Assembly: GCA_021108335.1 (NCBI GenBank) | Contig: JAIORC010000354.1 | Coordinates: 1-32,844, forward strand | Direction: 5' to 3' | DNA: 32,844 nt | From: Phycisphaerae bacterium | GTDB lineage: Bacteria > Planctomycetota > Phycisphaerae > SM23-33 | Shown here: in pieces, positions 2,549 through 24,666 of the stretch | How the letters are laid out: each line of letters starts with the position of its first letter | Position numbering within the stretch: the first letter of the stretch is position 1 | Program-made: the position numbers and the translations under genes | Notes under the pieces: model-generated | Databases searched by the model: none | What the model saw: the letters and a program-made list of their open reading frames with translations, nothing else | What the model was told of the DNA's origin: nothing

Positions 2549-4507
2549 TTATTTTCCCCATTTGCTCAAGGGTTTGATCCCAGGGACAGGCAGTTGCTTC
2601 CAGTTTTTGCCGATCGGCGTCAGCAGCACGGCCAGGCGAAGTTGCTTGTCGGCTGGCTTGACGCGGAAGACGAGCATTGAGACGCCCTTGTTGGACCGCT
2701 CCTTTTTGCGAGTGGGCGGAGGAGGCGAAACGATCTCGAATTTGGCCCCGGCGGGTTCCAGTATCTCGACCCTCAGGCTCTTGCCGTCCTGCGTTAACGT
2801 GGCCTTTGCGCCGTCGAGCTTGATTTTCGCTTCCGTCGCCATGGCCCAGCGGACTTCGCCGGAAGGTGAGGTAATCTCGTCCTGAACGAAAACGGCGGAA
2901 CGGTCCAACATCGCGATACCGCGCAAGACTTTCTTCGCCTGGCCGCGGTATGCTTTTGTCATGTCCACTACCGCATGCACGCGAACGGGCGTAGAAAGGT
3001 ACTTGATAATTCTGCTTCTGCTGTTCTTGACGCGCTGAAATTTATCGCCGATGACCAGCGTGTTGTGACTCTTTGAATTACAACTGAAATAACTCCATCG
3101 TTTCCCGGTTTCCTTCCTCCAGTCCCAATAACCCGGAACGAGATAGTGTTCCGGCCCGATATCCAAAGCCCATTGGACGCCGTCGGCATCGAGCACAAAC
3201 GAACCGATGTCCATGTGCATATGCCCGCCCAGATCGTTCGCGCCACCCTTGAATCCAACGAACAGGGAATTTTTGTCATTCCAGGCGCTGCGCATGGTAA
3301 CGACGTCCACTTTCCCGCGGAAGAGCCTGTCCCTGGCCAGTTTGTTCCCGGTTGGCGCCCGGCCTTCATCGTCAAACCATATTATCGCCTGTACACTTCC
3401 AGAGTATTTCCCCTTTGACGCAGACTTAGCCAACCTTTGACGATAGAACCACGCATAGGCCGGCTGATCGAATTTCTTCCCCATCCAGAACAACACCGAA
3501 CTCAACCCAAGACATTTCGGCTTACAGTCCGAAAAATTGAAACTTCTCGTCCCGCCAAGCCGGAGCATGTATATGGGGAAAAATCCCGTTTTGTCGAAGC
3601 CCTTCACCTTGGAAAGTCCGAAATCCTTGCCAAGGGCGCTGTCCAACGCAGCCAGCATCAGGACATTATATCTACTCCCGAATCCCCAATACCCCGGGCC
3701 TTCATAACACCCGCCGTCGGGGCTGTATGAAGCCATCGCCCTGGGTATGGAACGTATGGCATGGTCCAGAACCTTCGCAGCGATTTCCGGGTAGTCCTCC
3801 GCCACGGCCAGCGCTCCGAGCGTCAAGCCGCCGTTGCATACCTGGTTCCAATTGTTATGACCCGTGTGCCACCCGCCCTTCCTCGCATACACCGCCAGGC
3901 CGGGCTTGAGACCCTTTTCAACAATAGCCTTGCGAATCGTCAAGCGATCCTGGGGGCTTAATGTGTCGTACAACCAGTCGTAACCGATCGCCATACCATT
4001 GACCATCGCCGCAACGTCAAGAAAATGGGCGGGATTCCACGCCTTAAATGCCGCAGCCGCGAGCATCTCCTTGCGTGCCCGCTCGGCGAAACGCTTATCG
4101 CCCGTAAACCGATACGCCAACGCCAGCGTATGGACGCGTTTGGTACAGTTCTGCCCCTGATGCAGCATGTAATATCTATATCTTCCCTTCTTCGGCTTGT
4201 ATTTGACTGTCGGTTCGGAAAGTTTCTTCTCGGCATTTCGTTTCAACTGCTCGATCATGCCGGCAAGGAGCTTGTTGCTCTTAGCCAGCTTTTCGATACG
4301 CCGCTGGTCGTCGCTGGTGAACAGTAGCCGCGGATGTTCTTTACGCAGGCTATCCAAAACTGCGGGACGGCTATGTGGTTTTTGTATTTGTGCTGAAGAT
4401 TTTTTAGGGGCGGAGGCCGAGCCAGTCTTATCTTTCGTCCCACCGATGCAATTTGTCGACAGCACCGACAGAAGCAATAAAGTTATCCAAATCGTTGTTT
4501 TATACAT
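2549..4507 (-). CDS. Heparinase II/III-like polysaccharide lyase, exported
   Basis: Probable exported lyase of about 652 residues that cleaves uronic-acid polysaccharides by beta-elimination. The start chosen is ATG at 4507, because it has a good ribosome site (AGGAAAGG, 5 nt spacing) and begins with the signal-like MYKTTIWITLLLLSVLSTNC. The longer frame to 4633 would overlap the upstream gene. The N-terminal half is an alpha-toroid region with HTGHNNWNQVCNGG around residues 214-227; His217 and the Asn residues are candidate catalytic residues. The C-terminal half is the heparinase II/III beta-sandwich, with GGHMHMDIGSFVLDADG (His429, His431, Asp433) and SHNTLVIG (His481). The Cys at the end of the signal could make it a lipoprotein, but Asn precedes it, which is not a standard lipobox. 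Heparinase-like proteins act on alginate, heparin or other uronans; the substrate is not decided here. Confidence 0.8.
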   Translation of the reverse strand: MYKTTIWITLLLLSVLSTNCIGGTKDKTGSASAPKKSSAQIQKPHSRPAVLDSLRKEHPRLLFTSDDQRRIEKLAKSNKLLAGMIEQLKRNAEKKLSEPTVKYKPKKGRYRYYMLHQGQNCTKRVHTLALAYRFTGDKRFAERARKEMLAAAAFKAWNPAHFLDVAAMVNGMAIGYDWLYDTLSPQDRLTIRKAIVEKGLKPGLAVYARKGGWHTGHNNWNQVCNGGLTLGALAVAEDYPEIAAKVLDHAIRSIPRAMASYSPDGGCYEGPGYWGFGSRYNVLMLAALDSALGKDFGLSKVKGFDKTGFFPIYMLRLGGTRSFNFSDCKPKCLGLSSVLFWMGKKFDQPAYAWFYRQRLAKSASKGKYSGSVQAIIWFDDEGRAPTGNKLARDRLFRGKVDVVTMRSAWNDKNSLFVGFKGGANDLGGHMHMDIGSFVLDADGVQWALDIGPEHYLVPGYWDWRKETGKRWSYFSCNSKSHNTLVIGDKFQRVKNSRSRIIKYLSTPVRVHAVVDMTKAYRGQAKKVLRGIAMLDRSAVFVQDEITSPSGEVRWAMATEAKIKLDGAKATLTQDGKSLRVEILEPAGAKFEIVSPPPPTRKKERSNKGVSMLVFRVKPADKQLRLAVLLTPIGKNWKQLPVPGIKPLSKWGK

Positions 4508-4562
4508 GTGTACCTTTCCTGTCTTTGTCATTCTGTTTAAAGGGAATCTGTCTGGACTTTTC

Positions 4563-5195
4563 TCAACTCCCGGAATTATACCAGACGAGTTCGCCCCCGT
4601 GAATAGCGTCGTCCCTGGTATAGGGAGCGACACAGCCGTCCATGCAAAGAATATTTGAAACCCCGTTATGACGCGTATCGTCCGGGAGTCCCCAATTCAA
4701 ACTCTCATTTTTGTAAACACCATAGCCGTGATAACCCAAAACGCACTCGTTGATCCCCTCGCCCATTAAAACCGTTCGAGCCGGATCCTCAATACCGTAG
4801 CTCAATTTCCCGCCCATGTACCACTCCATACCATAGGCCATCTTAAACGCGCCATTGGACTGGGGGCTATAAGTTCGCGTCGGCGCACTTGGGCAGTGAA
4901 AGATAGCGGTATTATCCAATGAGTTATCATAAAGCTTATCCGCCCACACGCCGGTGAGCAATGACGGTCCCGTTTCGCGAATTCGCGGAATCCGTCCCTT
5001 AAAGCTGTTACTGTACAGAACAAACGCCAATTTGATCTGATGCATATTACTCGAACAAGCCGCTCGCCTGGCAAGACACTTGGCCCGGTTCAGACCCGGC
5101 AGGAGAATTGACACAAGCAGCGAGATGACGGAGATTACAATCAGAAGTTCTATAAGCGTAAAACACCGAGATTGTGGACTGCGTATTACAGACAT
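4563..5195 (-). CDS. Prepilin-like protein with altered cleavage site
   Basis: A 210-residue protein with a type IV prepilin-type N-terminus: short basic leader, then CFTLIELLIVISVISLLVSI as the membrane helix. It belongs to the family common in planctomycetes and lentisphaeres that carries a C-terminal DG motif; here the motif reads HNGVSNILCMDGCV. Two points are odd. The residue before the Phe at the prepilin peptidase site is Cys instead of the near-invariant Gly, and the usual DGHV has become DGCV. It starts 22 nt after the preceding prepilin gene with a GGAG site 9 nt from the ATG, so it is probably co-transcribed. It may be a diverging paralogue that is processed poorly or not at all. 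A precise role for this family is not known; pseudopilin-like secretion or surface roles are assumed. Confidence 0.8.
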   Translation of the reverse strand: MSVIRSPQSRCFTLIELLIVISVISLLVSILLPGLNRAKCLARRAACSSNMHQIKLAFVLYSNSFKGRIPRIRETGPSLLTGVWADKLYDNSLDNTAIFHCPSAPTRTYSPQSNGAFKMAYGMEWYMGGKLSYGIEDPARTVLMGEGINECVLGYHGYGVYKNESLNWGLPDDTRHNGVSNILCMDGCVAPYTRDDAIHGGELVWYNSGS

Positions 5196-5217
5196 GTATA
5201 GTTACTCCGTCGGTGGA

Positions 5218-5919
5218 TCAGAACCAGAAATCCACTCCCGCCAGTTCGCGTCTTTCCTCGGTCTGGTTTTCATCTTTCCATTCAACGTGGCCGTCATTGA
5301 ACAGAACATTGCCGCCGTCAAAACAGTCCCCTTTTCTATGGCTGGTCCACGATGGAACATTTTTTGTCATTATATCGGAGGCCATCACCGAATCTCCCGG
5401 CGACTTCAGGCTACAGGCTACATCATCCTCGGTAAGAGTTCCTGTTCTATAGTTCGCCCAATAGCAGTAACCGGCGAGGGCTTTTTTGTCGTTGGAGATA
5501 TAAGGCCAATGGTACTCCGGCTTGAATTGCGTGTTGGTTGGGCAGAAGAACGTGTTTATTGCTGGGACGTAATTTGGAACCAACGCCAGAAAGCCCGGGC
5601 AGTAGGACGTGCCGGGAGGGCTGTGAGGCCCGAGGCAGAAATCTCCGAACGGCCAGTGGGCGGTCCACATGTAGGGATACTTTGCGCTATTGTCCCCGGC
5701 GTACATACTCATGCCCAGGCCAATCTGCTTGAGACTGCTTCCGCAGGTTACCCGCTTGGTCAATTCCCTGGCCCGGTTCAGGCTCGGTATGAGGATGCTC
5801 GCCAGCAGCGAGATGATGGCGATTACGACGAGAAGCTCGATCAGGGTAAATCCACGCGATTGACGATTGCCCGCCGTAAGCGAAGGCGAACGGTCGAATT
5901 TCGATAGATGGTTATTCAT
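5218..5919 (-). CDS. Prepilin-like protein (N-methylation motif, H-x9-DG type)
   Basis: A 233-residue protein with a canonical prepilin start, [20 protein letters not shown], cleaved between Gly and Phe by prepilin peptidase. It ends with the family motif [16 protein letters not shown]. The body is rich in Tyr, Trp and Cys, as usual for this secreted globular domain. The ribosome site AAGGAG lies 8 nt from the ATG. It is the closest relative in the window of the prepilin-like gene at 11127: both share the SLLxxILxPSLNRA block and the CGSxLxxIGL block. A conserved non-coding leader shared with that paralogue lies immediately upstream. It probably heads a unit with the next prepilin-like gene and perhaps the lyase further downstream. 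Confidence 0.88.
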
Positions 5920-6090
5920 AAAGCCAACTCCTTCAGACTCGTAATCCGAAGACAGGCCGACACTCGGCCATTATCAATTGCCAATCCAAACATACTCTTC
6001 TGGCGAAGGGCCTTACATATCACACTGTATCACAAATCATACCAAAAACACCTTTGCTGTTTGTCCCAGCCGTTTGCGACGGCAGGAGTA
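5920..6090 (-). repeat. Conserved leader, copy A, before a prepilin-like gene
   Basis: Read on the minus strand, this non-coding stretch aligns with 10986-11126 on the plus strand. Shared blocks, in order, are CTCCTGCCGT, GGGAC, CCCTTCGCCA, AAGAGTATGTTTG, TTGGCAATTGATAAT, GGCCTGT and GGAGTTGG before ATGAATAA. A small hairpin (GCCGT-cgcaa-ACGGC) sits near its 5' end. Both copies lie between a DNRLRE/PEP-CTERM gene and its prepilin-like gene. It may be a structured 5' leader or simply a duplicated promoter region; no known riboswitch class was recognised. Confidence 0.7.
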
Positions 6091-6128
6091 GTGTGCCGGG
6101 GCACGAAACTGCCCATGCCCCGACACAC
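6091..6128 (-). terminator. Hairpin after the minus-strand PEP-CTERM gene
   Basis: A 13-bp stem (6091-6103 with 6116-6128) begins 33 nt after the PEP-CTERM stop. On the plus strand it has one C-A mismatch, but in a minus-strand transcript the same position is a U-G wobble, so the RNA pairs fully. No U-run follows. It matches the hairpin at 10950-10985 in sequence (GTGTGCCGGGGCA core) and in distance from the stop codon. Transcription termination or 3'-end stabilisation is likely. Confidence 0.55.
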
Positions 6129-6161
6129 CAGCAAAATGAAAAAGAGAAACGGAAAATCTTT

Positions 6162-6881
6162 TTACTTCCTTCGTCGGCGAAGGGCAAGCGGCAGACCAAG
6201 CAGCAGCAGTGTCATCGTCGCCGGCTCGGGGGTAAGCGTCAGCTTCGGCGGGTCATAAGTCGCATTTTCCTTGGATGCGATATAACTTCTGGGTGTCCCG
6301 CTTCCTGATGTGCGACAGAGAATAATTGTAACCTTGTCATTGGTATCACCGGTAAGAAACGCCAATTGGTCAGCATCGGTAATAGTAAACGACAACAAGG
6401 TTCCTGCTGCCGGGACATTGGTGAAAGTATGCAGCAGGGTTGTGTAATCTCCCCATACGGTATCACTTGCTTCCCGGTTGGCAGGCGCATTGGCCCAGGT
6501 AATAGCTGTTTCGCCCCAAGACTCATCAAGGTCGCCACTTCCGTAAGGGTCAGTACCGGTTCCGTTGTTCAATGCATAAACGTGGAGCGGAACAGTCTCA
6601 GTAGAGCTTCTGTAACTTACGGTGAGATCAATTGTTGCAGAAGTTATATTACTTTTACCGGCGGTCCAACCTGAAATGTCAAAACGTATCCAGGATTTCA
6701 TTTTGTAGCTGGCGCTTCCGTTTCTTATCTGCAAAACGGTACTCGTTCCATAATTCGTGCCTGTAGCACCACCGGACACAGTCGAGTCCGCGTCGGAGGT
6801 AACCACAAGGTCCGCCTGCGCCGACGAGGCCAACAGGGCGACCATCGCAACCAACATTGTCATTACAATTGCATTTTTCAT
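6162..6881 (-). CDS. DNRLRE-domain PEP-CTERM surface protein
   Basis: A 239-residue exported protein. The start chosen is ATG at 6881, with AAGGAG 7 nt upstream and a clear signal peptide (MKNAIVMTMLVAMVALLASS, cut after AQA). The in-frame extension to 6980 lacks signal-peptide character. Residues about 25-213 form one DNRLRE domain (SWIRFDISG, YGSGDLDESWGETAITWANAP, SYIASKENATYDPPKL). The end, TPEPATMTLLLLGLPLALRR plus RRK, is a PEP-CTERM sorting tail, which exosortase would cut to fix the protein at the surface. No exosortase gene is in the window. DNRLRE is related to the carbohydrate-binding CBM96 family, so a role in holding polysaccharide near the cell is likely. It resembles the DNRLRE part of the first gene more than the one at 10246. 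Confidence 0.87.
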   Translation of the reverse strand: MKNAIVMTMLVAMVALLASSAQADLVVTSDADSTVSGGATGTNYGTSTVLQIRNGSASYKMKSWIRFDISGWTAGKSNITSATIDLTVSYRSSTETVPLHVYALNNGTGTDPYGSGDLDESWGETAITWANAPANREASDTVWGDYTTLLHTFTNVPAAGTLLSFTITDADQLAFLTGDTNDKVTIILCRTSGSGTPRSYIASKENATYDPPKLTLTPEPATMTLLLLGLPLALRRRRK

Positions 6882-7006
6882 CTTACATCTCCTTCTGTTA
6901 GAACCATTTAACTCCAATAACCAATTTCCTTTTGTCAAGCCGTTCACATCACACATGTTCTGTTCTTCATTCATCTTCACCTCACCTTTCTGGTAACCAT
7001 ACTCTC

Positions 7007-7035
7007 CTTAAAAGATATTCAATTTTTCCTGTCAA
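7007..7035 (-). promoter_or_regulatory. Candidate promoter for the minus-strand PEP-CTERM unit
   Basis: On the minus strand TTGACA (7035-7030) is followed after 17 nt by TTTAAG (7012-7007). The -35 box overlaps the TGA stop codon of the regulator gene. The -10 box is only a 4/6 match, so this is tentative. A Shine-Dalgarno-led 7-codon frame (MVTRKVR, 7000-6977) follows directly. Confidence 0.35.
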
Positions 7036-8201
7036 GTAATCGCCATTTGTTTGGCCTTTTGGCCCACGTACCCGCCGCCGCTTGACTCGCGTACAACCAA
7101 TTTTGTCGGCAGTGCGATGTGCCGCGGCGTGTTTCGCTCGCCGGAAATTTTCTCCAGCAGCAGCTTCATTGCCATGCGACCCATTTCGTGGGTATTCCTG
7201 TCCACCGATGTCAGCGGGGAAACGAGATATTGTCCCATTTCATAGTTGTCATAACCTGCGACGGCTATCTCTTGCGGTATAGAAACACCCTTCGCCATCA
7301 AGGCGTTCATCACCATCTCGGCTATTCTGTCATTGATGGCGAAGATGGCGTCGGGCTTGTCAGGCAATTTCACAAGCTTATCAACAATGTCCGCTATTTC
7401 CCGGGGATCGTATGACTCGATGAACCTGACCAAATCACCCCGAGAAACACTGTCGTGAGCCGCCATCGCCTTGCGGTAACCGACAATACGATTCTCGACG
7501 TTCGAATCCATAGGCCCGGAGATCAGGGCGACTGACTTTCTGCCGCTTTCGAGCAGATGCTCGACAAGTTCCATGCTTCCCATCACGTCGTCGGAATAAA
7601 CGCAGTCCAGGCCGAAGCCGAGAACTGCGTCGGGTATGTTCAGGAAGTTTCTGTCGCAGAGAACGACCTCTACGCCCGCAGCCTGGAGGCGGCGGATACG
7701 CGAGATGTTTTCCTCGTAATACCCTTTGCTGATGGCTGCCGGTACGTAAATTACCCCGTCCACCTTCTTCTTGAAGAACTTCTCCAGATAAGAGTCGATT
7801 TTGGACAGGTCATCCTCGGTATTGCAGAATAGTACGTCATATCCAGCCTGGTGGGCTGCATCTTCGATGTTCCATACAATATCGCGGTCATACGGTGCCC
7901 CCGGATAGGCCGGAATAAGAACCGCAATGGTGGACGGCTTGGATTTGGTGCGGTCGGCAACAAATGTTCCAAGCCCTTGCTTACGATAGATAATTCCCCG
8001 GGTGGTAAGCTCACGGATGGCGCGATCGACGGTGGCATTGCTGATTGACAGTTTCGAGATAAGTTCACGCTGGCTGGGCAACCGCTGGCCCGGCTTGAGG
8101 TGGTTGCTGTGAACGTGCTCCTCGATTATCTCCATAAGCCGATAATGACGCGGCTTGGGGGCACATTCGTCAAGCTGCCTTTTTACTGCTTGAAAATCCA
8201 T
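7032..8201 (-). CDS. GntR-type regulator with LacI-like sugar-binding domain
   Basis: A transcription factor of 389 residues. The start is ATG at 8201 (MDFQAVKRQ), with GGGAGG 10 nt upstream; an in-frame TTG at 8219 would overlap that ribosome site. Residues about 18-85 are a GntR winged helix (LKPGQRLPSQRELISKLSIS, GIIYRKQGLGTFVAD). From about residue 90 follows a periplasmic-binding-protein-like effector domain (TIAVLIPAYPG, GYDNYEMGQYLVSPLTSVDR). This AraR-like build is typical of repressors released by a sugar. It is the first gene of the minus-strand cassette and faces the LacI gene of the mirrored cassette. The downstream PEP-CTERM, prepilin and lyase genes are the natural targets, and inverted repeats in front of it suggest self-control. 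Confidence 0.88.
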   Translation of the reverse strand: MDFQAVKRQLDECAPKPRHYRLMEIIEEHVHSNHLKPGQRLPSQRELISKLSISNATVDRAIRELTTRGIIYRKQGLGTFVADRTKSKPSTIAVLIPAYPGAPYDRDIVWNIEDAAHQAGYDVLFCNTEDDLSKIDSYLEKFFKKKVDGVIYVPAAISKGYYEENISRIRRLQAAGVEVVLCDRNFLNIPDAVLGFGLDCVYSDDVMGSMELVEHLLESGRKSVALISGPMDSNVENRIVGYRKAMAAHDSVSRGDLVRFIESYDPREIADIVDKLVKLPDKPDAIFAINDRIAEMVMNALMAKGVSIPQEIAVAGYDNYEMGQYLVSPLTSVDRNTHEMGRMAMKLLLEKISGERNTPRHIALPTKLVVRESSGGGYVGQKAKQMAIT

Positions 8202-8229
8202 GCTTGTTTGGCCTCCCAATTAAACGGGA

Positions 8230-8253
8230 ACTGTATAGGTACACCACTACAGT
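8230..8253. promoter_or_regulatory. Candidate operator before the GntR-type regulator
   Basis: An inverted repeat ACTGTA (8230-8235) and TACAGT (8248-8253), separated by 12 bp, lies 29 bp before the regulator start. It overlaps a weak minus-strand promoter (TTGTGT, 17 nt, TATACA). Position and symmetry fit autoregulation, but the two 6-bp arms could be chance. Confidence 0.3.
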
Positions 8254-8367
8254 AACACAAAAACAGGAGTATGCAAGCCAAAAAATCCGAAATTCGTCTG
8301 TTTTTTTGGATTGGCGTAGAAGCGGCAAGTGATATTTTTTTTCTGCCGCGATGTTAATGCTTTGTTT

Positions 8368-8379
8368 ACAAGGACTTGT
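8368..8379. promoter_or_regulatory. Short inverted repeat in the divergent gap
   Basis: ACAAG-GA-CTTGT forms a 12-bp palindrome-like site 34 bp before the ATG at 8414. It may be an operator for the rightward frame or a second site for the GntR-type regulator. The rest of the gap from 8254 to 8413 shows nothing else clear. Confidence 0.2.
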
Positions 8380-8413
8380 GTCACCTTTATTCAATTACCT
8401 TTAGGAGCAAGTC

Positions 8414-8824
8414 ATGGAAGACAAAAAGATATCACCGCAAGAGCTGAAAGCAGCATTGAATGGAGACATTGATTGCCTGGTTGAACAAGTGGCTGCAGCG
8501 ATGAACTCGGCCCAGCCGGGGCGGATCATCAATGACTCCGAAGACGTCAGCCCTGACGATTATCCGAAGTTTCGCGGCTCAATCACACACAGCCTATGCA
8601 CCCGCTGTCTACGCTTCGCAGTGCGGATTACTCCTGCCAATATCAGGCAAACACCACGCAAGACTCGCTTCCGGCCGTCGGGACACCTACCGGGTGGAAT
8701 TCTTCCTTCCACAGGGTTTCAACTTGAGGTTTCATGTTATGTTAATTTTACATTTTCAATCCTCCTTAATGGAACTTTACTGTCGCACCTGGAGTTTTCG
8801 GCAGGCACACCACCTGCGTATTAA
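8414..8824 (+). pseudogene. Broken gene with intact 5' end, possibly a transposase start
   Basis: The first 50 or so codons look real: an AGGAG ribosome site precedes ATG, and the frame gives acidic, ordinary protein sequence with AAAMNSAQPGRIINDSED. After about codon 55 the composition changes abruptly (SITHSLCTRCLRFAVRI and onward) and none of the three frames continues convincingly, so a frameshift or deletion is likely. The GRIINDSE motif recalls the N-terminal part of some ISKra4-like transposases, but this is from memory and weak. It may equally be an unknown short gene. It lies directly beside an 18-bp repeat that recurs inverted at 19146. Confidence 0.3.
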
Positions 8825-8842
8825 CCGGATGAACCAAAAATC
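8825..8842. repeat. 18-bp repeat, left copy
   Basis: CCGGATGAACCAAAAATC is found again, exactly and inverted, at 19146-19163. The two copies enclose the LacI cassette, the GH130 gene and the IclR/FAD unit. The match does not extend at either end. Confidence 0.6.
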
Positions 8843-8855
8843 GAAGATTTTAGCC

Positions 8856-8883
8856 TTGACAAAATCATGAAAATGTGCACAAT
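8856..8883 (+). promoter_or_regulatory. Candidate promoter of the LacI gene
   Basis: A perfect -35 box TTGACA (8856-8861) is followed after 16 bp by CACAAT (8878-8883, 4/6 match to TATAAT). The predicted start of transcription, near 8890, falls just before the first LacI operator, which suits repression. Confidence 0.5.
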
Positions 8884-8892
8884 CGATTGCGA

Positions 8893-8940
8893 GCGGAAAC
8901 GTTTGTGCAATGATTACATGGCAAGCAACAACGTTTGTGC
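8893..8940. promoter_or_regulatory. Two LacI-family operators in tandem
   Basis: GCGGAAACGTTTGTGC (8893-8908) and GCAACAACGTTTGTGC (8925-8940) are two 16-bp near-palindromes with the central CG typical of LacI-family operators. Their right halves are identical (AACGTTTGTGC). The ideal form would be GCACAAACGTTTGTGC. They are 32 bp apart, about three helical turns, and lie between the promoter and the LacI gene, so autoregulation with cooperative binding is likely. Confidence 0.6.
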
Positions 8941-8977
8941 AGTATATTTAGCGTGAAATATTGGAAATGGAAAACAA

Positions 8978-10042
8978 ATGAGAGTTACACTCAAACATAT
9001 CGCAAAAGAGGCCGGTGTTGATGTTTCCACGGTTTCTCGCGTGCTCAACAAAAAAGGCCGCGAAACCCGAATCAGCCCTAAACGCGAAAGCCAGATTCTC
9101 GAAGCGGCGCGGCAATTGCGGTATATCCCCAACAGTTCAGCCCGGGCAGTCCGCACGGGCCGTTTCGACTGTGCCGCGCTGTTGTTGAGTACTCACCTCG
9201 CATGCAGCTACATGCCGTCTTTCCTTCTTGAGGGTATACACGACGAACTAGCCAAGCGGGACATGCATCTGACACTGGCCAAGCTACCTGATGAAAAGCT
9301 GTCCAGTGAGGGTTACGTTCCCAAAATATTGCGGTCTATGATGGCTGATGGCCTGCTGATCGATTACACGCACCAGCTTCCTGCCCAACTCGAAGATATC
9401 ATCAAACGCCGCAGTATCCCCGCGGTGTGGCTCAACACGAAGCACGAGATGGATTGCGTGTATCCAGACAATCTGGAGGCGGGTCGTCGGGCGACTCAAT
9501 ACCTGCTGAAGATGGGCCATCGTCGTATCGCTTATGCGGATTATTTTTTCGGATATGAAGATGTCGCCGCAGCCCACTACAGCGCGGTGGACCGCTGCAG
9601 GGGATACGAGCAGGCGATGCGTCAGGCCGGGCTGGAACCCCGGACGATTCGTGCGGACGCCGGACGCGTACCAGCCGGCCTGGAAGAAGTTGAGTTCACC
9701 AAACGCTGGATGTCCGAACCGAACCGGCCGACGGCGGTAATAGCTTACTGGATGACCATCGCCCTTCCGATACGTCAGGCTGCGCTTGAGATGGGGTTGA
9801 GCGTCCCGAAGAACCTGTCGATTCTAACTTTCGCAAGCGAGTCGTCCGGAAACGGTGTTTTGCTCGATTCCGGATTTAATATCACCGCAATGGTCGAACC
9901 TGAACAGGAAATGGGTCGGACCGCCGTGCAGATGCTCCTGGAAAAAATCGAGAAGCCATCCAATGCGTTGGCTTCAAAAGTGTTGAATTTCAAACTCGAA
10001 GAAGTCGGAAGCTGCTGCCCGCCGAGCGGCAAAGAACATTAA
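8978..10042 (+). CDS. LacI-family transcriptional regulator
   Basis: A 354-residue repressor. Residues 1-50 are a LacI helix-turn-helix (TLKHIAKEAGVDVSTVSRVL) with the hinge region at about 50-60. From about residue 65 a sugar-binding effector domain follows (FLLEGIHDELAKRDMHLTLA, VYPDNLEAGRRATQYLLKMG, HRRIAYADYFFGYED). The conserved C-terminal block is VEPEQEMGRTAVQMLLEKIE. GGAAAATGGAAA-like purines precede the ATG. It opens the plus-strand cassette with PEP-CTERM, prepilin, lyase-like and GH130 genes, so it probably controls them in response to a sugar derived from the target polysaccharide. Two operators in its own leader point to self-control. The ligand cannot be read from the sequence. 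Confidence 0.92.
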   Translation: MRVTLKHIAKEAGVDVSTVSRVLNKKGRETRISPKRESQILEAARQLRYIPNSSARAVRTGRFDCAALLLSTHLACSYMPSFLLEGIHDELAKRDMHLTLAKLPDEKLSSEGYVPKILRSMMADGLLIDYTHQLPAQLEDIIKRRSIPAVWLNTKHEMDCVYPDNLEAGRRATQYLLKMGHRRIAYADYFFGYEDVAAAHYSAVDRCRGYEQAMRQAGLEPRTIRADAGRVPAGLEEVEFTKRWMSEPNRPTAVIAYWMTIALPIRQAALEMGLSVPKNLSILTFASESSGNGVLLDSGFNITAMVEPEQEMGRTAVQMLLEKIEKPSNALASKVLNFKLEEVGSCCPPSGKEH

Positions 10043-10245
10043 CACTTTAGTTACAGGGAGAAAGCGTATGAAAAGGAAAAAGAGAACGACAACAGAGGAA
10101 ATCATGGGCTTCGGGTGAAGCATGGGAGAATAAAATGACAATGAAAACAGGAAAGGAGTAGTAGAGGTGGAAGAGTTCAAAGGTTTCAAACAAGGAAAAA
10201 GGTTTGACCAGGTAAAAACTTTTCAAACAGTGAAAGGAAAGAAAA
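10043..10245 (+). other. Purine-rich leader with small frames
   Basis: This 203-bp gap is strikingly rich in purines on the plus strand. It contains several Shine-Dalgarno-like sites and short frames. The best is ATG at 10068 after AGGGAGAAAGCGT, encoding 16 residues (MKRKKRTTTEEIMGFG) and ending at 10118. No clear promoter or terminator was found. Whether any of these frames is translated is unknown. Confidence 0.3.
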
Positions 10246-10917
10246 ATGAAGACTAGTAAAACAATTATTGTAGGAATCGTAATGTTGAGTCTGCTGGCCG
10301 GGCCGGCACTGGCGGCTATCATTACCATCCAGCCGGATGCAGCTGCCGGTAAGGACACCTATGTTCGAATCAGCCAACCTGACACCAACTTCGCAACAGA
10401 TACAACTCTGCGCATTCAGCATGGTGACGACTCTAATCGATATCGAACCTATTTGCAGTTTGATATTTCCGGGATACCGATGGGCCAGACAATCGACAGT
10501 GCAACACTGTCTTTATACATGTTTGGCGGATGGGGTACTGCCACTCTTGATAATAATGTTTATGGAGTAACCGAAAGCTGGGGCGAAACCGGTCCCACAT
10601 GGAACAATCCCCCAGCTTGGAACACTACTGTAAGGGCAACGCGACAGATGACCGGAACTGAGGCCGTCGGATGGAAACCTTGGGATATTACAAGTCTGGT
10701 CCAGGACTGGTATGACGGTACGTCTACCAATTACGGCATGCTGATTTATTCCCCGACTTATGCCAACAGCCACACAGCGTTCTACAGTAGCGACGAGGCT
10801 ACTGAGACGACTTTGCGTCCCAAGCTTGATATTACCTATACCCCCGAGCCGGCGACGATGACGTTGCTGGGCCTTGGCGGTATCGGCCTGTTGATCCGCC
10901 GGCGTCGAAGGAAATAA
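10246..10917 (+). CDS. DNRLRE-domain PEP-CTERM surface protein
   Basis: A 223-residue exported protein with signal peptide MKTSKTIIVGIVMLSLLAGP (cut after ALA, about residue 23). Residues about 26-198 form one DNRLRE domain (RTYLQFDISGIPMGQTIDSA, VTESWGETGPTWNNPP, WDITSLVQDWYDG, FYSSDEATETTLRPKLDITY). The tail TPEPATMTLLGLGGIGLLIR plus RRRRK is a textbook PEP-CTERM sorting signal. This copy keeps the WDITSLVQDW strand typical of full DNRLRE domains, which the copy at 6162 lacks, so the two are distant paralogues. It stands between the LacI gene and a prepilin-like gene, the same place as its counterpart in the minus-strand cassette. The likely job is binding polysaccharide at the cell surface. 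Confidence 0.9.
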   Translation: MKTSKTIIVGIVMLSLLAGPALAAIITIQPDAAAGKDTYVRISQPDTNFATDTTLRIQHGDDSNRYRTYLQFDISGIPMGQTIDSATLSLYMFGGWGTATLDNNVYGVTESWGETGPTWNNPPAWNTTVRATRQMTGTEAVGWKPWDITSLVQDWYDGTSTNYGMLIYSPTYANSHTAFYSSDEATETTLRPKLDITYTPEPATMTLLGLGGIGLLIRRRRRK

Positions 10918-10949
10918 AAGACTATTGACGCAGTATGTTTTTTCATCTT

Positions 10950-10985
10950 GTGTGCCGGGGCAATGATTGTTTTGCCCCGGCACAC
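10950..10985 (+). terminator. Hairpin after the plus-strand PEP-CTERM gene
   Basis: A perfect 14-bp stem (GTGTGCCGGGGCAA at 10950-10963 with 10972-10985) and an 8-nt loop begin 33 nt after the stop, exactly as at 6091-6128. No U-run follows. It may stop part of the transcription or protect the upstream message so that the surface protein is made in excess over the genes that follow. Confidence 0.6.
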
Positions 10986-11126
10986 TGCTCCTGCCGTTGC
11001 AGGCAGCCGGGACTTGTTTGTATGTTCCCTGTAAGCCCTTCGCCAAAAGAGTATGTTTGAGTTGGCAATTGATAATCACCGGGTGGTGGCCTGTTTTCGG
11101 GTTACCGGCTTGATGGAGTTGGTATT
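10986..11126 (+). repeat. Conserved leader, copy B, before a prepilin-like gene
   Basis: This is the plus-strand partner of 5920-6090. It shares CTCCTGCCGT, CCGGGAC, CCCTTCGCCA, AAGAGTATGTTTG and TTGGCAATTGATAAT, plus the GGAGTTGG ribosome region before ATGAATAA. Its 5' hairpin is CTGCC-gttgca-GGCAG, a stem at the equivalent place but with different bases from copy A, which hints at conserved structure. Confidence 0.7.
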
Positions 11127-11810
11127 ATGAATAATCGTCAATCATGCGGTTTTACGTTGATCGAGCTTTTAGTCGTGATCGCTATCGTTTCGTTGTTGAC
11201 GGCGATACTGTTGCCGTCGCTGAACCGGGCAAAGGAATTTGCCAGGCGCGCTGTCTGCGGAAGTAATCTGCATGCAATCGGCTTGGCGACTGCCATTTAT
11301 GCCGGAGAAAACGCCAACAATCTGCCGCCGACGTATAGTGACGAGAAATACCAGTACTGGTTCTATGCGGGATGGGAATCGGCCAGGGGATGGAAAAATC
11401 TGGGTTATTTCGCAAAGGCCAATCTCTTAGAACCGCATGGCGATACTATTTTTTGTCCTAGCCAGAAGAATGAATCGTATATGAATGCATACGGAATGCC
11501 CACACATAAAAATTATTGTGGCGCATCGAATATGTGCCCGGAAGATCAGCAGTTGGGATGGATTAACACACGAGCCGGATATTACCGCCGCCTGTTTGAC
11601 GAATCCGATAAGAAAATAGAGCAAATGAGAGATATTGATTCCAGGTCGTGGCTGGCGGATTTATGTCATTGGGGGCTGTATTATATCGCTTCTGGACATG
11701 TCGTGGGCGTCAACGTCTGGTACGGTGATGGTCATGTGGAATTCAGGCAGGTCGACAATTCCATGTTTGATGAAAATCAGGACATGATGTGGGACGTAGC
11801 TTTTGAGTAA
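11127..11810 (+). CDS. Prepilin-like protein (N-methylation motif, H-x9-DG type)
   Basis: A 227-residue protein with canonical prepilin start [20 protein letters not shown] (cleavage between Gly and Phe) and the C-terminal family motif [19 protein letters not shown] lies 8 nt before the ATG. It is paralogous to the gene at 5218 and sits at the same place relative to its PEP-CTERM neighbour. Unlike the other cassette, only one prepilin-like gene follows here. Proteins of this family are numerous in planctomycete genomes. They are likely inserted by the type II/type IV pilus machinery, and their occurrence beside glycan-degradation genes suggests a role at the cell surface. No pilus assembly genes are in the window. 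Confidence 0.88.
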
Positions 11811-11963
11811 AGCTTAATCACCCTCCCGCCCCAACGTATCCATCCTGACAGGAATCCCCGGCTGTGTAAAAACAGTATCCGTTCCAACCTTTGCAAACGG
11901 GAAAACACGAATTACGCAAATTCATATTATGACTTCATGTAAAATAGCCGGAAAGGATACAAC

Positions 11964-14900
11964 ATGAAATATACCATAACGGTAACGGCTTTGTTATTCA
12001 CGATTACCATGCCTGTTTTTTCGGCTGATCCTGCGAAAAAGGATGTTGCGAAGACGGTCCGGCGGAAAACCGTCAATGAGGTATTCAACAGGCCTTTCGT
12101 TCGACACAATCGCAACTTAAAGTTTCAGCCCTACGAAACTCCGCATCGTTATCTGAACATGGGTAGCGGGTTTTTCATTTACGGTTATAACAGGGAATAC
12201 CGCACTTCAACGGCTGCCATGATCCTCGGATGTCTGAAATCTCCCGGGAAAGACTTGCGAGGGCGGCACAGCAATAGAAATGGATTTGGTCGCCACTCCT
12301 GGGGCGGGTTTGAAATGCAAAGCAACGAAAAAATGACCATCAACCTGAACTACAGGTGGAAGTTTTCGGAAGACACGCTTGAAATAACCAATGAGAAGGA
12401 TTGCCTTCGCGTCGTTCAGAAAACCCGCTTCCTCAAGACGACTTCTCTGCGTGCGATTGGAGCAATGATAAAGCTGCCGACAAAATACTGGGATGGCGGC
12501 AGATGGACAGTCGGCAACAAGTCTGGCACGTTCCATAAGGGACTCGATAAAAGCATTGTCCTTCCGTCGGCAAAAACGCTTGTGTTCAACCTTGCCGGCA
12601 GTGATTTCAGTATTGAAATAAACCTGCACGAGAAGGTTAAGGAGATTGTAATCAACAGGCATGATTTTGCATTGGGAAATTACGAGATATATATAGTCAG
12701 CGAGGGATCGCTGGCGAAAAAGCCAAGGGTTTTCAAAGCCGGCAGCGATTACAGTTTGTCCTACGACATAAAAACGGCTGGTAGATTCCCCGATCCGCTA
12801 ATTGATGAAAAGGGTTGGGAGACGCGGGGGCGTTCCTGGATATTGCGTAGACCTCTTAAAGAATTCGCCGCGGATACCAGATTTAACGATGAACGCGTAA
12901 AGAGGGAAATCGCATACCAGATTCTGGATAAGAATTCGGAATTCTATGGAATGTGCAATACGCCGTACCCGAAAGGGGTATCGGGACGGGCTGACCATTT
13001 CGATCGTCCGGTGTTGCGTACCCGGGACATTCTGAAGCAAATCTGCCCTGCCTACTGCAATCGAAAATCTAAATATTATCACAATAAGGAGATGGGCAAC
13101 CGTCTGTCTGCCTGCCTGGACTACCTTAGTGCGGCGATAAACAGGCAATCGGCACAATTCGGGGATATAAGACGAAGAGGATGGTCCAAGGCACCGTGTA
13201 CTCTCCGTAATTTGCCAATGGCACAGGCAATAGTCGCCCTCGCACGGCATCACGACGTGCCTGACAGGAAAATCGCGTATTGGGTAAGAAGCTATGAATA
13301 TCGCTGGAAAAATTCCGATTTACAGGATGCCCTTGTCGGAATCAAAAAAAAGGCTATCGGATTCAACGCCGTTACGAAAATATTCAACGCAGCCAGAGGC
13401 GCGAAATTCCTGGAAAAGAATAGCTTCATGCCGGAATTTGCCAAGGGAATGTCTGTCGCATTTGGTATAAACACGAATCCCGTATTTGGGGTGAAGTCCG
13501 ATTTCAGCCATCGTGAGCATCATCCGAATTTCTTCGATACGACATATTATCTCTATATGCTCAATTATATCTGTGACTATTACCGCTTGACCCGCGGCAC
13601 GGAATTTGAATTTCGAGGTAAAAACAAAAAAACACTTGAAGGTATTCTCGACGCGGCGATCTGGCTGCACGACAATGCCCTGGTTACGCCGATCACAAGC
13701 GACGCCAGGGCAAGGCTGCTCGGCGGACATCACTACAAACGCGCGTTCGAAATACTGAGAAACGAATATCCAGCCGCGATGACGGTTTATCACCAAATCA
13801 AGGTTCGCAATCACAAGACCGGAAAGAAGGCCGTCGCGAGTTCCAAACGCCGGCTACCGGCAGGTTTCAAGTGGTTTTATAATCCCGGGATGCTGGTCGC
13901 ACGCACCGACGATTATTATTGCGCCGTAGTGGCAAAGCCAAGAATTATCGCCATGTGCGTAAACTCATGGGGCTTCAACGCCAAAATGCCAATGGGCGGG
14001 TTCTATATGCGTACGATGGGCCAACCCAGAGAGTGCGTAGTGCCGACGGATAATGCGTTTTTCTCCGGCGTAACGCTTGTTGACGGCATGCAGCATAAAG
14101 CGGATGCGGATGACGAATTCATGAACAACGACGGTTCGCGATTCGTCGATTCGATCCAGTTGGGCAAAGACGCCGCGCTGTTCGGCATGGATGCCGTCGA
14201 GGCCACCAAAGCCGCCCCGAAGGATAAACTACACTTCCAGAAAACGTACTTCTTCCTCAAGGACAGAGTCATAACGATGCAGCATGTCCCCGCCCAGAAA
14301 ACAAAACGAAAAACCTGGGCATATCCATTTATTATGACCACCCCGCATAAGAAGAAAGTTTCTACTCCGCGAGGGAGTTTCGATGTCCTCCCGGACAACA
14401 AGAAACATAAAATTACGAAACTGGGATTCCCGAAATGGATCATGCTGGAAACCATGGGAATCGTTCCGATTCAAACGTCAACGCCGATTGAGTTTTGTGA
14501 TCTCGGTGCCAAGGGATACAGGCTGGAAAGGGTCGGCAAGGGGTGGACTCCCAAAAAAGACATGAAACAATTAGCCACGGTGAGAATCCCTCTCGACCCG
14601 GCCAAAGGCGGGCAGTATGTGATTGCTTATCTTCCGACAGCCGACGTCGAGGCTGTAAAAAAGGAGGCCCTTGACGGTAAAAAGGTCAAGATTCTATCAA
14701 GCGGGCTTGTCCACGCGTTGAAGGCTGGGAACTGCCTGATGGTGGCAAATTATCAGTCGGACAAACAGGTAGTCGTAGACAGCGTCAAAATCAAAGGAAG
14801 AGCATTTCTGATAGTAAAAAAATCCCCCACTCAATTGAGTGTTGTCGTCAGTGCCTGGGAAAATGTGAAAATCGAAATCCCGGCTTCGGAATTTGCGCCG

Positions 14901-15098
14901 AAGGTTTCCATCCTCGAAGGCTCAGGAAAAGCTGAGCACCGTAATGGAATCCTTACAATCACAACCAAACCGCAAGTTCGTTATTACCAGGACAGAAAAC
15001 CCCTGGAAAATTTCAAGTGGAGAAATAAGAGCTTCCCCGTGGAAGATATAATAGATAAACGAAAAGTACCCCTTCAAATTATGTTAGAAAGGAAATAA
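11964..15098 (+). CDS. Large secreted protein, possibly a polysaccharide lyase
   Basis: A 1044-residue protein with signal peptide [20 protein letters not shown] (cut near Ala21). I do not recognise a named family. The N-terminal 270 residues look beta-rich. Residues about 290-610 are helix-rich with Trp/Tyr/His clusters ([20 protein letters not shown]), as in the alpha-toroid of lyases. The remainder is beta-rich, with [33 protein letters not shown] and [15 protein letters not shown]. An alpha-toroid followed by beta-sandwich layers would fit PL8-like or heparinase-like lyases, and the position mirrors the lyase of the other cassette. The catalytic assignment is inference. A ribosome site GGAAAGG precedes the ATG. 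The 153-bp gap before it shows no clear terminator or promoter. The stop lies 2 nt from an alternative start of the next gene, so the two are co-transcribed. Confidence 0.7.
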
Positions 15099-15145
15099 TT
15101 ATGCAAAATATTTTATTGAAAGAAACAAACAAGGAGAGCATTCAT

Positions 15146-16156
15146 ATGTCAGGCAATAAGCCGCAAACTATCATAGGGCCGAATCTGCCGAACATTCCAT
15201 GGGAGGACAAGCCCACCGGTTGTGACGAAGTACTCTGGCGGTATAGCCGCAACCCGGTTATCCCACGCGATTTGATTCCGTGTTCCAACAGCATTTTCAA
15301 CAGTGCGGTGGTTCCCTTCGAAGGCAAGTTCGCCGGCGTATTCCGCGTGGACGACAAATGCCGGCACATGAGGCTTCACAAAGGAACGAGCGAAGATGGC
15401 GTAAACTGGCGGATTGATAACGATCCCATCGAGTTCATCTGCGATGATCCGGAAATCGCACCTTTCATATGTGGCTACGATCCCCGCGTCTGCTGGATTG
15501 AAGATCGGTATTATGTCACCTGGTGCAACGCTTATCACGGCTATCCGACAATCGGCGTGGCATATACTCACGATTTTAAAGAATTTCATCAGCTTGAAAA
15601 TGCTTTTTTGCCATTCAACCGTAACGGCGTAATGTTCCCGCGTAAGATCAACGACAAGTTCGCCATGCTGTCCCGTCCCAGCGACAACGGCCATACACCC
15701 TTCGGCGATATTTTTTACAGTGAAAGCCCGAACATGTGCCACTGGGGCAAACATCGTTTTGCGATGGGTACTGTGAACAATCATAGCTGGCAGACTACCA
15801 AGATAGGTGCCGGGCCGATTCCCATCGAAACCACGGAAGGTTGGCTGCTGATTTACCACGGAGTGCTGACGTCATGTAATGGATTCGTTTACAGCGCCGG
15901 TGCGGCCCTGCTGGATATAGATAAACCGTGGAAAGTAATCGCCCGAACAGAACCCTACATTCTCAATCCACGCGAGATGTACGAATGCGTCGGCGACGTT
16001 CCGAACGTAGCCTTTCCGTGCGCCGCTCTGGCCGATGCAGCCACCGGTCGCATCGCAATGTACTACGGAGCCGCCGACACGGTTGTCGCCATGGCCTTTA
16101 CGCAGGTCGATGAATTGATTACCTTTATCAAGGCAAACACAATTACCCATGGTTGA
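15146..16156 (+). CDS. GH130-like glycoside phosphorylase or hydrolase
   Basis: A five-bladed beta-propeller enzyme of about 336 residues, related to GH130 beta-mannoside phosphorylases. Visible family features are [26 protein letters not shown], the [17 protein letters not shown] block (Asp112 is the candidate proton donor), [20 protein letters not shown] and the closing [12 protein letters not shown]. There is no signal peptide, so it acts in the cytoplasm on imported oligosaccharides, by phosphorolysis if it is a phosphorylase. The start at 15146 has AAGGAG 9 nt upstream. An ATG at 15101, also with a purine-rich site, would add 15 residues ([15 protein letters not shown]) and remains possible. 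It follows the large lyase-like gene closely. The natural substrate, mannoside or other, cannot be fixed from sequence alone. Confidence 0.82.
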
Positions 16157-19526: not shown

Positions 19527-20693
19527 ATGTCATATAGGAAAAAGCGGATACTGTTCGTGGACGACGAATTCCACTTCCTGGAAGGGCTGCGGCGTAGGCT
19601 TCGCCCATATCGTCGGGAGTGGGAGATAGTATTTGTCCAAAACGGCAAAGAAGCCCTGGGAGAAATGCAAAAGGCGGCGTTCGATGCCGTTGTCCTGGAC
19701 CTCTATATGCCCGGGATGAACGGTTTTGATCTGCTGGGAGCGATACTGGAAGACGAGCGGACAAAAGATATTCCCGTTATCGTTTTGACGGGTGGGAAAG
19801 ATCAAGATCTCAAACGGCGTGCTCTGGATCTGGGGGCGACCGACCTTCTGGGCAAACCTGTTGAGTTGGAGGATTTGTTAGCCCGGCTTCGCAGCGTGCT
19901 TCGTTTGAAAGCATACCAGGACGAAATCAAGGCCATGAATGCGGAACTGGAGCAGAGAATCGAAGAGCACACCCGGTACCTCATGCAGGCCCGAGTTATC
20001 CAGTCCTTGTCCCTGCAGGAAGAATTGCCTGTAGACGATCATATCGTGTTTACCACACACTATATTCCACACGATCTTATTGGTGGAGATTACTACGCCA
20101 TCGCGCAACTGGATATTGGCTGCTATGGTTTTTTTCTGGCTGACATTACCGGTCACGGCATCCCGGCGGCCCTGTATACCATGCACCTCCGTTCGCTCTG
20201 GAATCAGAATCGCCACTTGATCGTAAGCCCCTCTGTTTTTGCCGAGGTGATGAACGACAGCCTGTGTCGTCTCATCGAGGGAGGCGGACATTTCGCCGCC
20301 GCCATTTGTGGAATGTTTGATCTGAGGCAGGAAACGCTGACGCTCTGCAGCGCCGGCAATCCGCCGCCGCTTGTAATCCACAGCAACGACGAGTTCGAAC
20401 ACGTAAACTGCGCCGGATTGCCTCTGGGGTGTATTGAGGGCACAAGCTACGAAGAAACCGTGGTGGAGACGCGTGCCGGAGACTGTGTACTCCTGTTCAC
20501 GGATGGGGCTGTGGAAATCCGCCATGCTGCCGGAGAGTATCTCAACGCGGACGGGCTTGTGGAGATACTCCGGGAGCTGGGCTACCCTCGTTCGGATGCC
20601 GGCTTCCAGGACATCGAGGATCAGTTGCTCAAATATTCCAACCAGATAGGCTTCGACGACGACCTGACATTCATTGAAGCGCGTTTGACATAG
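19527..20693 (+). CDS. Response regulator with PP2C (RsbU/SpoIIE-like) phosphatase output
   Basis: A 388-residue protein. Residues 1-125 are a receiver domain: acidic pair Asp12-Asp13, phosphoacceptor Asp58 (VVLDLYMPGMNG), LTGG, and Lys110 (LLGKPVE). A coiled-coil linker (about 130-155) leads to a PP2C-type Ser/Thr phosphatase at about 160-388. Metal-binding acidic residues are all present: Asp188 (IGGDYY), Asp206 (ADITGHGIPAAL), Asp326 (LFTDGAVE) and Asp377-379 (DDDLTF). Such proteins usually dephosphorylate an anti-sigma antagonist in partner-switching systems, under control of a histidine kinase. No STAS antagonist or anti-sigma kinase gene is in the window, so the target is elsewhere or different. 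It is first in the signalling operon. Confidence 0.92.
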   Translation: MSYRKKRILFVDDEFHFLEGLRRRLRPYRREWEIVFVQNGKEALGEMQKAAFDAVVLDLYMPGMNGFDLLGAILEDERTKDIPVIVLTGGKDQDLKRRALDLGATDLLGKPVELEDLLARLRSVLRLKAYQDEIKAMNAELEQRIEEHTRYLMQARVIQSLSLQEELPVDDHIVFTTHYIPHDLIGGDYYAIAQLDIGCYGFFLADITGHGIPAALYTMHLRSLWNQNRHLIVSPSVFAEVMNDSLCRLIEGGGHFAAAICGMFDLRQETLTLCSAGNPPPLVIHSNDEFEHVNCAGLPLGCIEGTSYEETVVETRAGDCVLLFTDGAVEIRHAAGEYLNADGLVEILRELGYPRSDAGFQDIEDQLLKYSNQIGFDDDLTFIEARLT

Positions 20694-20732
20694 ACCCCTG
20701 AAAATAAATTGGCACCAAACAAGGAGAACGTC

Positions 20733-21527
20733 ATGGAATGGATAAGACATCGTTGGATACGTATTCCGCTCATTCTGCTAATGGCTGTTTTTGTATTTAC
20801 GGGCGGCTGCGGGCAGACGAAAAAGCAACCGAAGAAAGAACTGCTCATCTATTGCGGTATTACAATGATTAAGCCGATGACCGACATCGCGGAAATCATT
20901 GAAGAACAGGAAAATTGCAAAATTATTATTATAAAAGGCGGTTCCGGTAATCTTCTCAAGTCGATCAAAACCAACAAGGTTGGCGATTTGTATTTGCCGG
21001 GGTCGGATTTCTACATCAAAACCTGTTTGCGGGAAGGCCTTGTTACCGAAACGGTTCATGTTGGACACAACAAGGCTGCGATGATGGTGCAGAAGGGCAA
21101 TCCGAAGGGGATTACCGCTGACCTCAATAATCTCGCGTCGAAGGAATACTACGTCGTGATTTGCAATCCAAACAGCGGCAGTATCGGCAGGGAGACAAAA
21201 AAGATTCTTGATAAAAAAGGCATTTTTCAGAAAGTCCAGGATAACGCCCGCGACATAACAACAGACTCAAAAGACCTGAGCCTTGCACTGATCAACAAGC
21301 AGGCCGATATTGTCATTAACTGGTATGCGACATCCACCTGGCCGGCAAACGAACCTTACGTCGAAGTGCTGCCGATTGACGAGAAATATGCCGCAAAGAA
21401 GAAGCTGGTTATCGGTCTGCTCAAGACGGCGGAGCATCCTGAAATCGCCCGCAAGTTCATGGAATACGCCGCTTCTGGCAAAGGCCATGAATTGTTCAGA
21501 AAATACGGTTTATACGACGTAAAGTAA
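20733..21527 (+). CDS. Periplasmic substrate-binding lipoprotein (ModA/PstS-like fold)
   Basis: A 264-residue binding protein. The start is ATG at 20733 with AAGGAG 6 nt upstream; a TTG at 20709 is in frame but lies before the ribosome site. The signal IPLILLMAVFVFTGGC places the lipid on Cys26. The mature part starts LLIYCGITMIKPM and contains GGSGNLLKSI, GDLYLPGSDFYI, NPNSGSIGRETKKIL and AASGKGHELFRKYGLYDV, typical of class II binding proteins for oxyanions. No permease or ATPase gene accompanies it. It lies 20 nt before the histidine kinase gene, so it more likely presents its ligand to the kinase sensor domain than feeds a transporter. The ligand might be molybdate, phosphate or another anion; not determined. 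Confidence 0.85.
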   Translation: MEWIRHRWIRIPLILLMAVFVFTGGCGQTKKQPKKELLIYCGITMIKPMTDIAEIIEEQENCKIIIIKGGSGNLLKSIKTNKVGDLYLPGSDFYIKTCLREGLVTETVHVGHNKAAMMVQKGNPKGITADLNNLASKEYYVVICNPNSGSIGRETKKILDKKGIFQKVQDNARDITTDSKDLSLALINKQADIVINWYATSTWPANEPYVEVLPIDEKYAAKKKLVIGLLKTAEHPEIARKFMEYAASGKGHELFRKYGLYDVK

Positions 21528-21547
21528 CCCTGAAGGAGTAGCCTGCA

Positions 21548-24118: not shown

Positions 24119-24142
24119 CCCTCAAGACAGGGAGAACAAAAA

Positions 24143-24610: not shown

Positions 24611-24666
24611 TACCAGATTCAGTCCGGGAAAAGCCGGCAACGCTCCGGCTGTGGAGAATGTGATCA

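Follow-up and report, generated by a model that had tools for sequence, protein, structure and literature searches.

A repeated gene cassette in a Phycisphaerae genome places PEP-CTERM proteins, H-X9-DG prepilins and carbohydrate-active enzymes behind LacI-superfamily regulators

Results

Contig C14 of a draft Phycisphaerae genome (3.78 Mb, 91% complete), a stretch of 32,844 nt that we call the window, carries two divergent gene cassettes in which the same parts follow one another: a LacI-superfamily regulator, a PEP-CTERM protein with a CBM96/DNRLRE ectodomain, a hairpin, one or two H-X9-DG-type prepilins, and a lyase, which is putative in the right arm. This pattern is not special to the window; about 30 copies are present in the genome. 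We propose, with a probability of roughly 60%, that the cassettes are independently regulated operons resembling polysaccharide utilization loci (PULs), each putting a glycan binder and a pilin of its own on display alongside an enzyme. The module is real, highly significant and repeated; it is probably new as an architecture, and PUL-like in its probable function.

To guard against bias, our count of pairs started from all 52 prepilin-type N-termini rather than from the leader sequence; prepilin and hairpin counts are genome-wide, and the survey of PEP-CTERM genes covered ~0.72 Mb of contigs. Thirty of the 52 prepilins are preceded on their own strand by a PEP-CTERM open reading frame (ORF) whose end lies 42-382 nt upstream, as compared with a pairing rate of 1.85% for random positions on the same PEP-rich contigs (P about 2e-38). 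The unpaired prepilins include several that are clustered as in type II secretion system (T2SS) or type IV pilus (T4P) operons (C136 and C12, where there are also ATPase genes), two that are second tandem pilins (C14 and C19), and one at a contig end. For 28 of the 30 pairs, the gene before the PEP-CTERM gene runs in the same direction, and in 27 of these 28 it encodes a Peripla_BP_3 regulator, with a LacI helix in 17 cases and a GntR helix in seven. The gene behind the pilin is usually large and on the same strand; among those scanned, eight and the left arm's are Hepar_II_III/DUF4962-type and four are PL8, with the remainder having CBM9, AGA-YXIM or DUF4838 domains, or no known domain. The PEP-CTERM ectodomains are similarly varied: CBM96 in 11/30, Laminin_G_3 in 6/30, and mostly no known domain in the rest. 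One exosortase (PF09721, E 1e-50, on C112) and several T2SSE ATPases of T2SS/T4P type are encoded elsewhere in the genome. The TonB plug domain PF07715 has no match in this 91% complete genome, indicating that the cassettes are not SusCD loci. An earlier note on the window had suggested a reusable module; the near-constant upstream regulator, the carbohydrate-active enzyme (CAZyme)-like protein downstream and the shuffling of parts described below all strengthen that idea. We also observed an unusual tandem on C116 (893-4600), where four consecutive PEP-CTERM genes are followed by a prepilin after the last.

The cassettes share a pattern of DNA conservation. Averaged pairwise over 18 cassettes anchored at the PEP-CTERM stop or the prepilin motif, DNA identity is 0.26-0.35 in the PEP-CTERM ectodomain, 0.81-0.95 from 72 nt before the stop, and 0.84-0.88 at the prepilin motif, from which it fades over about 180 nt; it also rises to 0.65-0.78 at AQA signal peptides. 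At identical residues, third codon positions agree at a rate of 0.77 in the PEP-CTERM tail and 0.61 in the pilin. The shared DNA is a constant block that starts abruptly within PEP-CTERM codons (tail, stop and hairpin) and resumes at the prepilin N-terminus, with variable, shuffled flanks. When the block of the left arm was used as a DNA query, it gave 44 matches in the genome, most of them spanning the PEP-CTERM tail and hairpin only and a few the whole block.

All 32 genomic copies of a strict hairpin pattern stand directly behind PEP-CTERM stops (control, 0), which led us to reject a dispersed repeat of the repetitive extragenic palindromic (REP/REPIN) kind. Pairing holds in 99.5% of cells over 20 distinct copies, and three of the ten pairs have changed on both sides, a level reached by 1 of 500 shuffles. 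A U-G pair is frequent in the stem; read from the opposite strand it would become a C-A mismatch, suggesting that the PEP-sense RNA is the likely functional form. There is no U-tract adjacent to the stem, the consensus continuing with ACTCCTGC and a T run appearing several nucleotides later in some copies only; this, and the absence of a call from a terminator scan, led us to reject an intrinsic terminator, though the hairpin may stop transcription in part. A role of the conserved CTCCT after the hairpin in sequestering a ribosome-binding site was also rejected, as folding supports it in just one CTCCT-bearing cassette (C46:17363). Rfam gave no match above its gathering score in the window, and chance matches only for the leader.

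All-against-all comparison of regulators, PEP-CTERM ectodomains, variable parts of pilins, and enzymes revealed that the parts are exchanged between cassettes. The cassettes on C19 and C47 have lyases that are 84% identical, next to binders and pilins that are not related to each other; regulator and pilin types are common to C19 and C57:6310, which differ in binder and enzyme (Hepar_II_III-type versus PL8); and those on C35, C277 and C94 combine one pilin type with different binders. There are also signs of decay. A relic second PEP-CTERM tail, ATMTLLLFGLPLTLRRKRKY*, lies between hairpin and pilin on C77 (10045-10112), and the long leaders on C14, C39 and C241 open with a GCCCTTCGCC stretch resembling it, which looks like the remnant of a deleted PEP-CTERM tail. 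On C90 (12800) and C268 (3392), a pilin-like start, ATGAATAAACGTCAAACGCAAATT or a degenerate form of it, follows the PEP-CTERM gene and hairpin with the prepilin motif lost; these are likely pilin pseudogenes. Together, the relic tail and the motif-less pilin starts point to turnover of cassettes.

The earlier note had proposed looking for conserved pairing of PEP-CTERM and prepilin genes in relatives, the lack of which would have refuted its reading; such pairing is clearly present in other genera of the family, as it is in 30/52 cases in the genome studied here. Related prepilins were found in all 31 relatives' genomes searched. Relatives picked by their best PF07589 score gave few pairs, because other PEP-CTERM families were sampled, so our counts rest on selection by prepilin instead. 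In a genome from another genus of the same family (G025), 20 pilins were examined, of which 14 have a PEP-CTERM partner gene. Regulators of LacI, GntR or ROK-like type often accompany these pairs, as do enzymes that are GH-type or otherwise related to carbohydrates; in four further genomes (G011, G026, G008 and G009), 9/23 pilins are paired (control, 6%). The best match among named loci is a Sedimentisphaerales metagenome-assembled genome, in keeping with a host from the Phycisphaerae. The hairpin motif was not found in the examined loci from relatives. Within G025 (L177-L193), GH42M, DUF4838, DUF6259 or GH123-type enzymes replace the lyases, with ROK-like regulators in two cases.

We now turn to the two arms of the window. 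The earlier note had read in both the order regulator, PEP-CTERM protein, hairpin with leader, and prepilin, and each of these features is indeed in place. The left arm is on the minus strand. Its regulator (7032-8219) combines a GntR winged helix (PF00392, E 1.4e-15) with a LacI-type sugar-binding domain (PF13377, E 3e-32) in an AraR-like layout, and is followed by the PEP-CTERM protein (6162-6980; CBM96 E 2.9e-16, DNRLRE E 1.1e-18), whose tail PEPATMTLLLLGLPLALRRRRK can be read directly in the sequence. Folding and pattern searches place the hairpin, GTGTGTCGGGGCA/TGCCCCGGCACAC, after the stop of this gene at about 6091-6128. A long leader (5920-6035), common to the right arm, C39 and C241 (81-87% by blastn), precedes a DUF1559-like prepilin (5218-5919; N_methyl E 1.8e-9, PF07596 E 5.8e-6), behind which lie a tandem second prepilin with the divergent N-terminus CFTLIELLIV (4563-5195; TIGR02532, 21.0 bits in the genome search) and the lyase ORF (2549-4633).

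The right arm is on the plus strand, with a LacI-family regulator (8978-10042; LacI E 5.4e-13, Peripla_BP_3 E 3.8e-22), a CBM96/DNRLRE PEP-CTERM protein (10246-10917; CBM96 E 3.2e-32, PEP-CTERM PF07589 E 2.6e-6), the hairpin GTGTGCCGGGGCA/TGCCCCGGCACAC at about 10950-10985, located in the same way, a long leader (11013-11126) recognised by blastn and by alignment with its left counterpart, an H-X9-DG prepilin (11127-11810; N_methyl E 1.7e-8, TIGR04294 E 5.5e-5, 22.8 bits against a cut-off of 19), a putative lyase (11964-15098) and a GH130 phosphorylase (15101-16156). ORFs and domain matches thus agree with the earlier description of two prepilins on the left and a GH130 enzyme on the right. 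Both PEP-CTERM proteins end in a PEP motif, a transmembrane stretch and a basic cluster. The prepilin N-terminal motif scores above cut-off with TIGR02532 and PF07963 for 5218-5919 and 11127-11810; the C-terminal H-X9-DG motif, for which the right prepilin passes TIGR04294, is degenerate in part of the genome's prepilin family. A prepilin structure model was of moderate quality (pLDDT 68.5), and a PDB search with it returned no match.

The arms had been described as mirror-image paralogues with different regulator families. Their order and constant block are indeed the same: they align from the PEP-CTERM codons through stop, hairpin and leader into the prepilin start, with ~81% mean column identity, and both hairpins fold better than shuffled sequences (z -3.5 on the left and -4.0 on the right). 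However, the closest cassettes lie on other contigs, C39 and C241 for the left arm and C48 and C109 for the right, so "mirror-image" is an overstatement; the two arms are not each other's closest paralogues, the constant block alone being common to both. As for the regulators, a GntR helix-turn-helix does stand against a LacI one, but the effector domain is a LacI-type Peripla_BP_3 in both, such that they differ in their DNA-binding part and not in their sensor part.

Just before the right regulator are a promoter-like site, TTGACA...CACAAT (8856-8883, plus strand), and, directly after it, a pair of LacI-operator-like palindromes that have AACGTT at their centres and stand 32 bp apart (8893-8941, plus strand). 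A homologous regulator on C109 has similarly placed paired palindromes, 31 bp apart. There is no AACGTT-type palindrome between the right regulator and its PEP-CTERM gene, an arrangement that suggests an autoregulated operon starting at the regulator, with the palindromes as predicted operators. Between the divergent regulators is a small ORF of 136 aa (8414-8824), which may be a gene remnant.

The earlier note had assigned a probable lyase to each arm, which is clear for the left arm and much less so for the right. Residues 99-693 of the left enzyme match 8khv (E 1.3e-115) over nearly the full mature length, with further matches to 8khw (E 2.1e-104) and the PL35 chondroitinase 9o3q (E 9e-99); Hepar_II_III_C and DUF4962 domains are recognised, and the NNWNQVCN and HxHMD segments of PL35 are kept in the alignment, identifying the protein by homology as a PL35 glycosaminoglycan lyase. 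Members of this family cleave hyaluronan, chondroitin sulfate and heparan sulfate, with catalytic roles for N/Y/H residues (PMC12088678). The 5' end of the left ORF overlaps the second prepilin, and translation probably starts further inside. The right enzyme has no Pfam or NCBIfam match, and no PDB match by phmmer. Its similarity to a PL8 lyase of the same genome (blastp E 3e-10; hhalign probability 96.5%, E 8e-10, residues 306-797) is remote and suggests a very divergent PL8 relative; N468, H519, Y528 and R582 fall in invariant columns of an alignment that is weak in that region. An AlphaFold model from a five-row alignment reached pLDDT 32. A genome-contig database search yielded no relatives of this enzyme, and 34 other family genomes gave a trivial match only. 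The neighbouring GH130 enzyme (4udg UHGB_MP, E 1.7e-158) is nearest to beta-1,4-mannooligosaccharide phosphorylases.

Elsewhere in the window, a DNRLRE protein at 3-2180 has two repeats whose DNA copies (1057-1356 and 1687-1986) are ~84% identical, apparently a recent internal duplication. Reading of translations suggests a plus-strand run of response-regulator/phosphatase-like, substrate-binding-like, sensor-kinase-like, CBS and HDOD/HD-type proteins at 19527-26998, and a PstS-like protein at 27463-29592.

Discussion

We propose that each cassette works as a unit, most likely under a LacI-superfamily regulator that would repress its own operon, given the operator-like palindromes before its gene, until an oligosaccharide of the target glycan appears. 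The spacing of the genes is consistent with one transcript. The PEP-CTERM protein, anchored by the exosortase, would act as a lectin-like protein holding the glycan at the surface; the prepilin, assembled by the encoded T2SS/T4P machinery, may aid the display or export of the cognate enzyme, or chain capture; and the secreted lyase or other CAZyme would cut it. Most likely, the stable hairpin, which has no U-tract, shields the message upstream of it or stops transcription in part, such that more binder would be made than pilin and enzyme. Recombination in the constant DNA (signal peptide, PEP-CTERM tail with hairpin, and pilin N-terminus) would create new cassettes by swapping ectodomains, pilins, enzymes and regulators. 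More tentatively, and at slightly less than even odds, the whole may amount to combinatorial pilin-linked capture and degradation of glycans, in which constant blocks serve as recombination joints for dozens of sensor, binder, pilin and enzyme combinations, deployed as autonomous operons without a SusCD transporter.

Several observations weigh against joint function as we propose it. Of the 36 hairpin copies matched by pattern, 15 follow PEP-CTERM genes that have the same tail but no pilin, so the PEP-hairpin unit can do without one; G025 has units of pilin and enzyme without a PEP-CTERM gene (L178, L185 and L192), and hence the two parts are not strictly dependent on each other. Outside the family such pairs are rare, being found in 1 of 61 distant named loci. 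Binder and enzyme types are hardly associated (Mantel r 0.01, P 0.35; the maximum across part pairs is 0.31), which argues against tight partner specificity. Lastly, in neither window cassette did we recognise a transporter or porin, leaving the "uptake" of the earlier note without direct support.

Some of these points fit another arrangement, which we regard as a plausible if less favoured alternative: the prepilin may be a T2SS pseudopilin or minor pilin that only exports or positions its cognate enzyme, with the PEP-CTERM protein an unrelated adhesin under the same regulator. Indeed, pilin type goes with enzyme type (Mantel r 0.26, P 0.006) more closely than binder type does, the pilin-enzyme units of G025 dispense with the PEP-CTERM gene, and T2SSE-type ATPases are at hand in the genome. 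Nonetheless, it is the PEP-pilin junction whose DNA is conserved, and in 30 cases the pilin has the PEP-CTERM gene immediately upstream.

A second alternative is that the repetition is mainly recombinational, the DNA from PEP-CTERM tail and hairpin to pilin N-terminus being a homogenising repeat spread by gene conversion, and the gene order a by-product with little joint function. The abrupt DNA boundaries and the high third-position identity in the tail would be expected from such a repeat, as would the relic tail on C77 and the motif-less pilin starts on C90 and C268. We consider this unlikely, since G025 keeps the gene order despite having diverse tails and no match to the hairpin motif in the loci examined, and since regulator and enzyme also hold their places. 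Less likely still is a role outside nutrition, in which the cassettes would reshape exopolysaccharide made by the cell itself or fix the cell to a matrix, their lyases trimming uronate-containing biofilm polymers: PEP-CTERM/exosortase systems do accompany exopolysaccharide production (Haft et al., 2006; PMC1569441) and the lyase families act on acidic polymers, but every cassette comes with a LacI-type sensor of its own, the family of the left lyase is one that cleaves glycosaminoglycans (PMC12088678), and the GH130 enzyme of the right arm is of a catabolic phosphorylase type.

Regulated glycan-capture operons of the kind we favour would bear on how Planctomycetota grip large polymers without SusCD, in a phylum whose CAZyme clusters are said to be functionally uncharacterised (PMC11131199). 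A fixed architecture repeated about 30-fold is a concrete and testable unit; it connects specific lyases with PEP-CTERM proteins and H-X9-DG prepilins, both of them large orphan families, and it makes part-swapping visible at the level of whole operons. Our literature search found no report of PEP-CTERM proteins with prepilins or DUF1559 proteins in such a setting, which is weak evidence of novelty since subscription papers were mostly outside the search.

The individual parts have known counterparts. Type IV pili of Fimbriiglobus ruber that aid adhesion to chitin (cited in PMC11131199) likewise combine pili and biopolymer binding in a planctomycete, although the passage on them describes no pilin that is specific to a locus and stands with both a lyase and a PEP-CTERM binder. 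The H-X9-DG/DUF1559 prepilins of Planctomycetes (TIGR04294, PF07596) have the same prepilin N-terminus and DUF1559 region and form a similarly large paralogous family; what sets those described here apart is their link with genes for PEP-CTERM proteins and CAZymes, under a local regulator. DUF1559 genes of R. baltica have been read as solute-binding and stress-responsive (PMC2754498). The PEP-CTERM/exosortase system (PMC1569441) has in common with our cassettes the PEP motif, hydrophobic stretch and basic end, the exosortase, and many paralogues whose tails are more alike within than between species. PEP-CTERM genes were reported mostly as single-gene operons, with a conserved upstream sigma-54-type site in Proteobacteria (PMC1569441), whereas many of those here lie in a multi-gene cassette with a common downstream hairpin. 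The left lyase, whose predicted substrates are glycosaminoglycans, resembles the PL35 GAGases (8khv, 8khw and 9o3q) over nearly its full mature length, including the conserved segments, but its genomic setting is unlike a SusCD locus. A further parallel is with the SusCD-type PULs and CAZyme clusters, which similarly gather a sugar-responsive regulator, a surface glycan binder and degradative enzymes in one locus, likely by the same logic of one locus per glycan. Unlike the PULs of Bacteroidota, our cassettes have no SusC, are anchored by exosortase and PEP-CTERM, include a prepilin and a LacI-superfamily regulator, and are shuffled around constant DNA.

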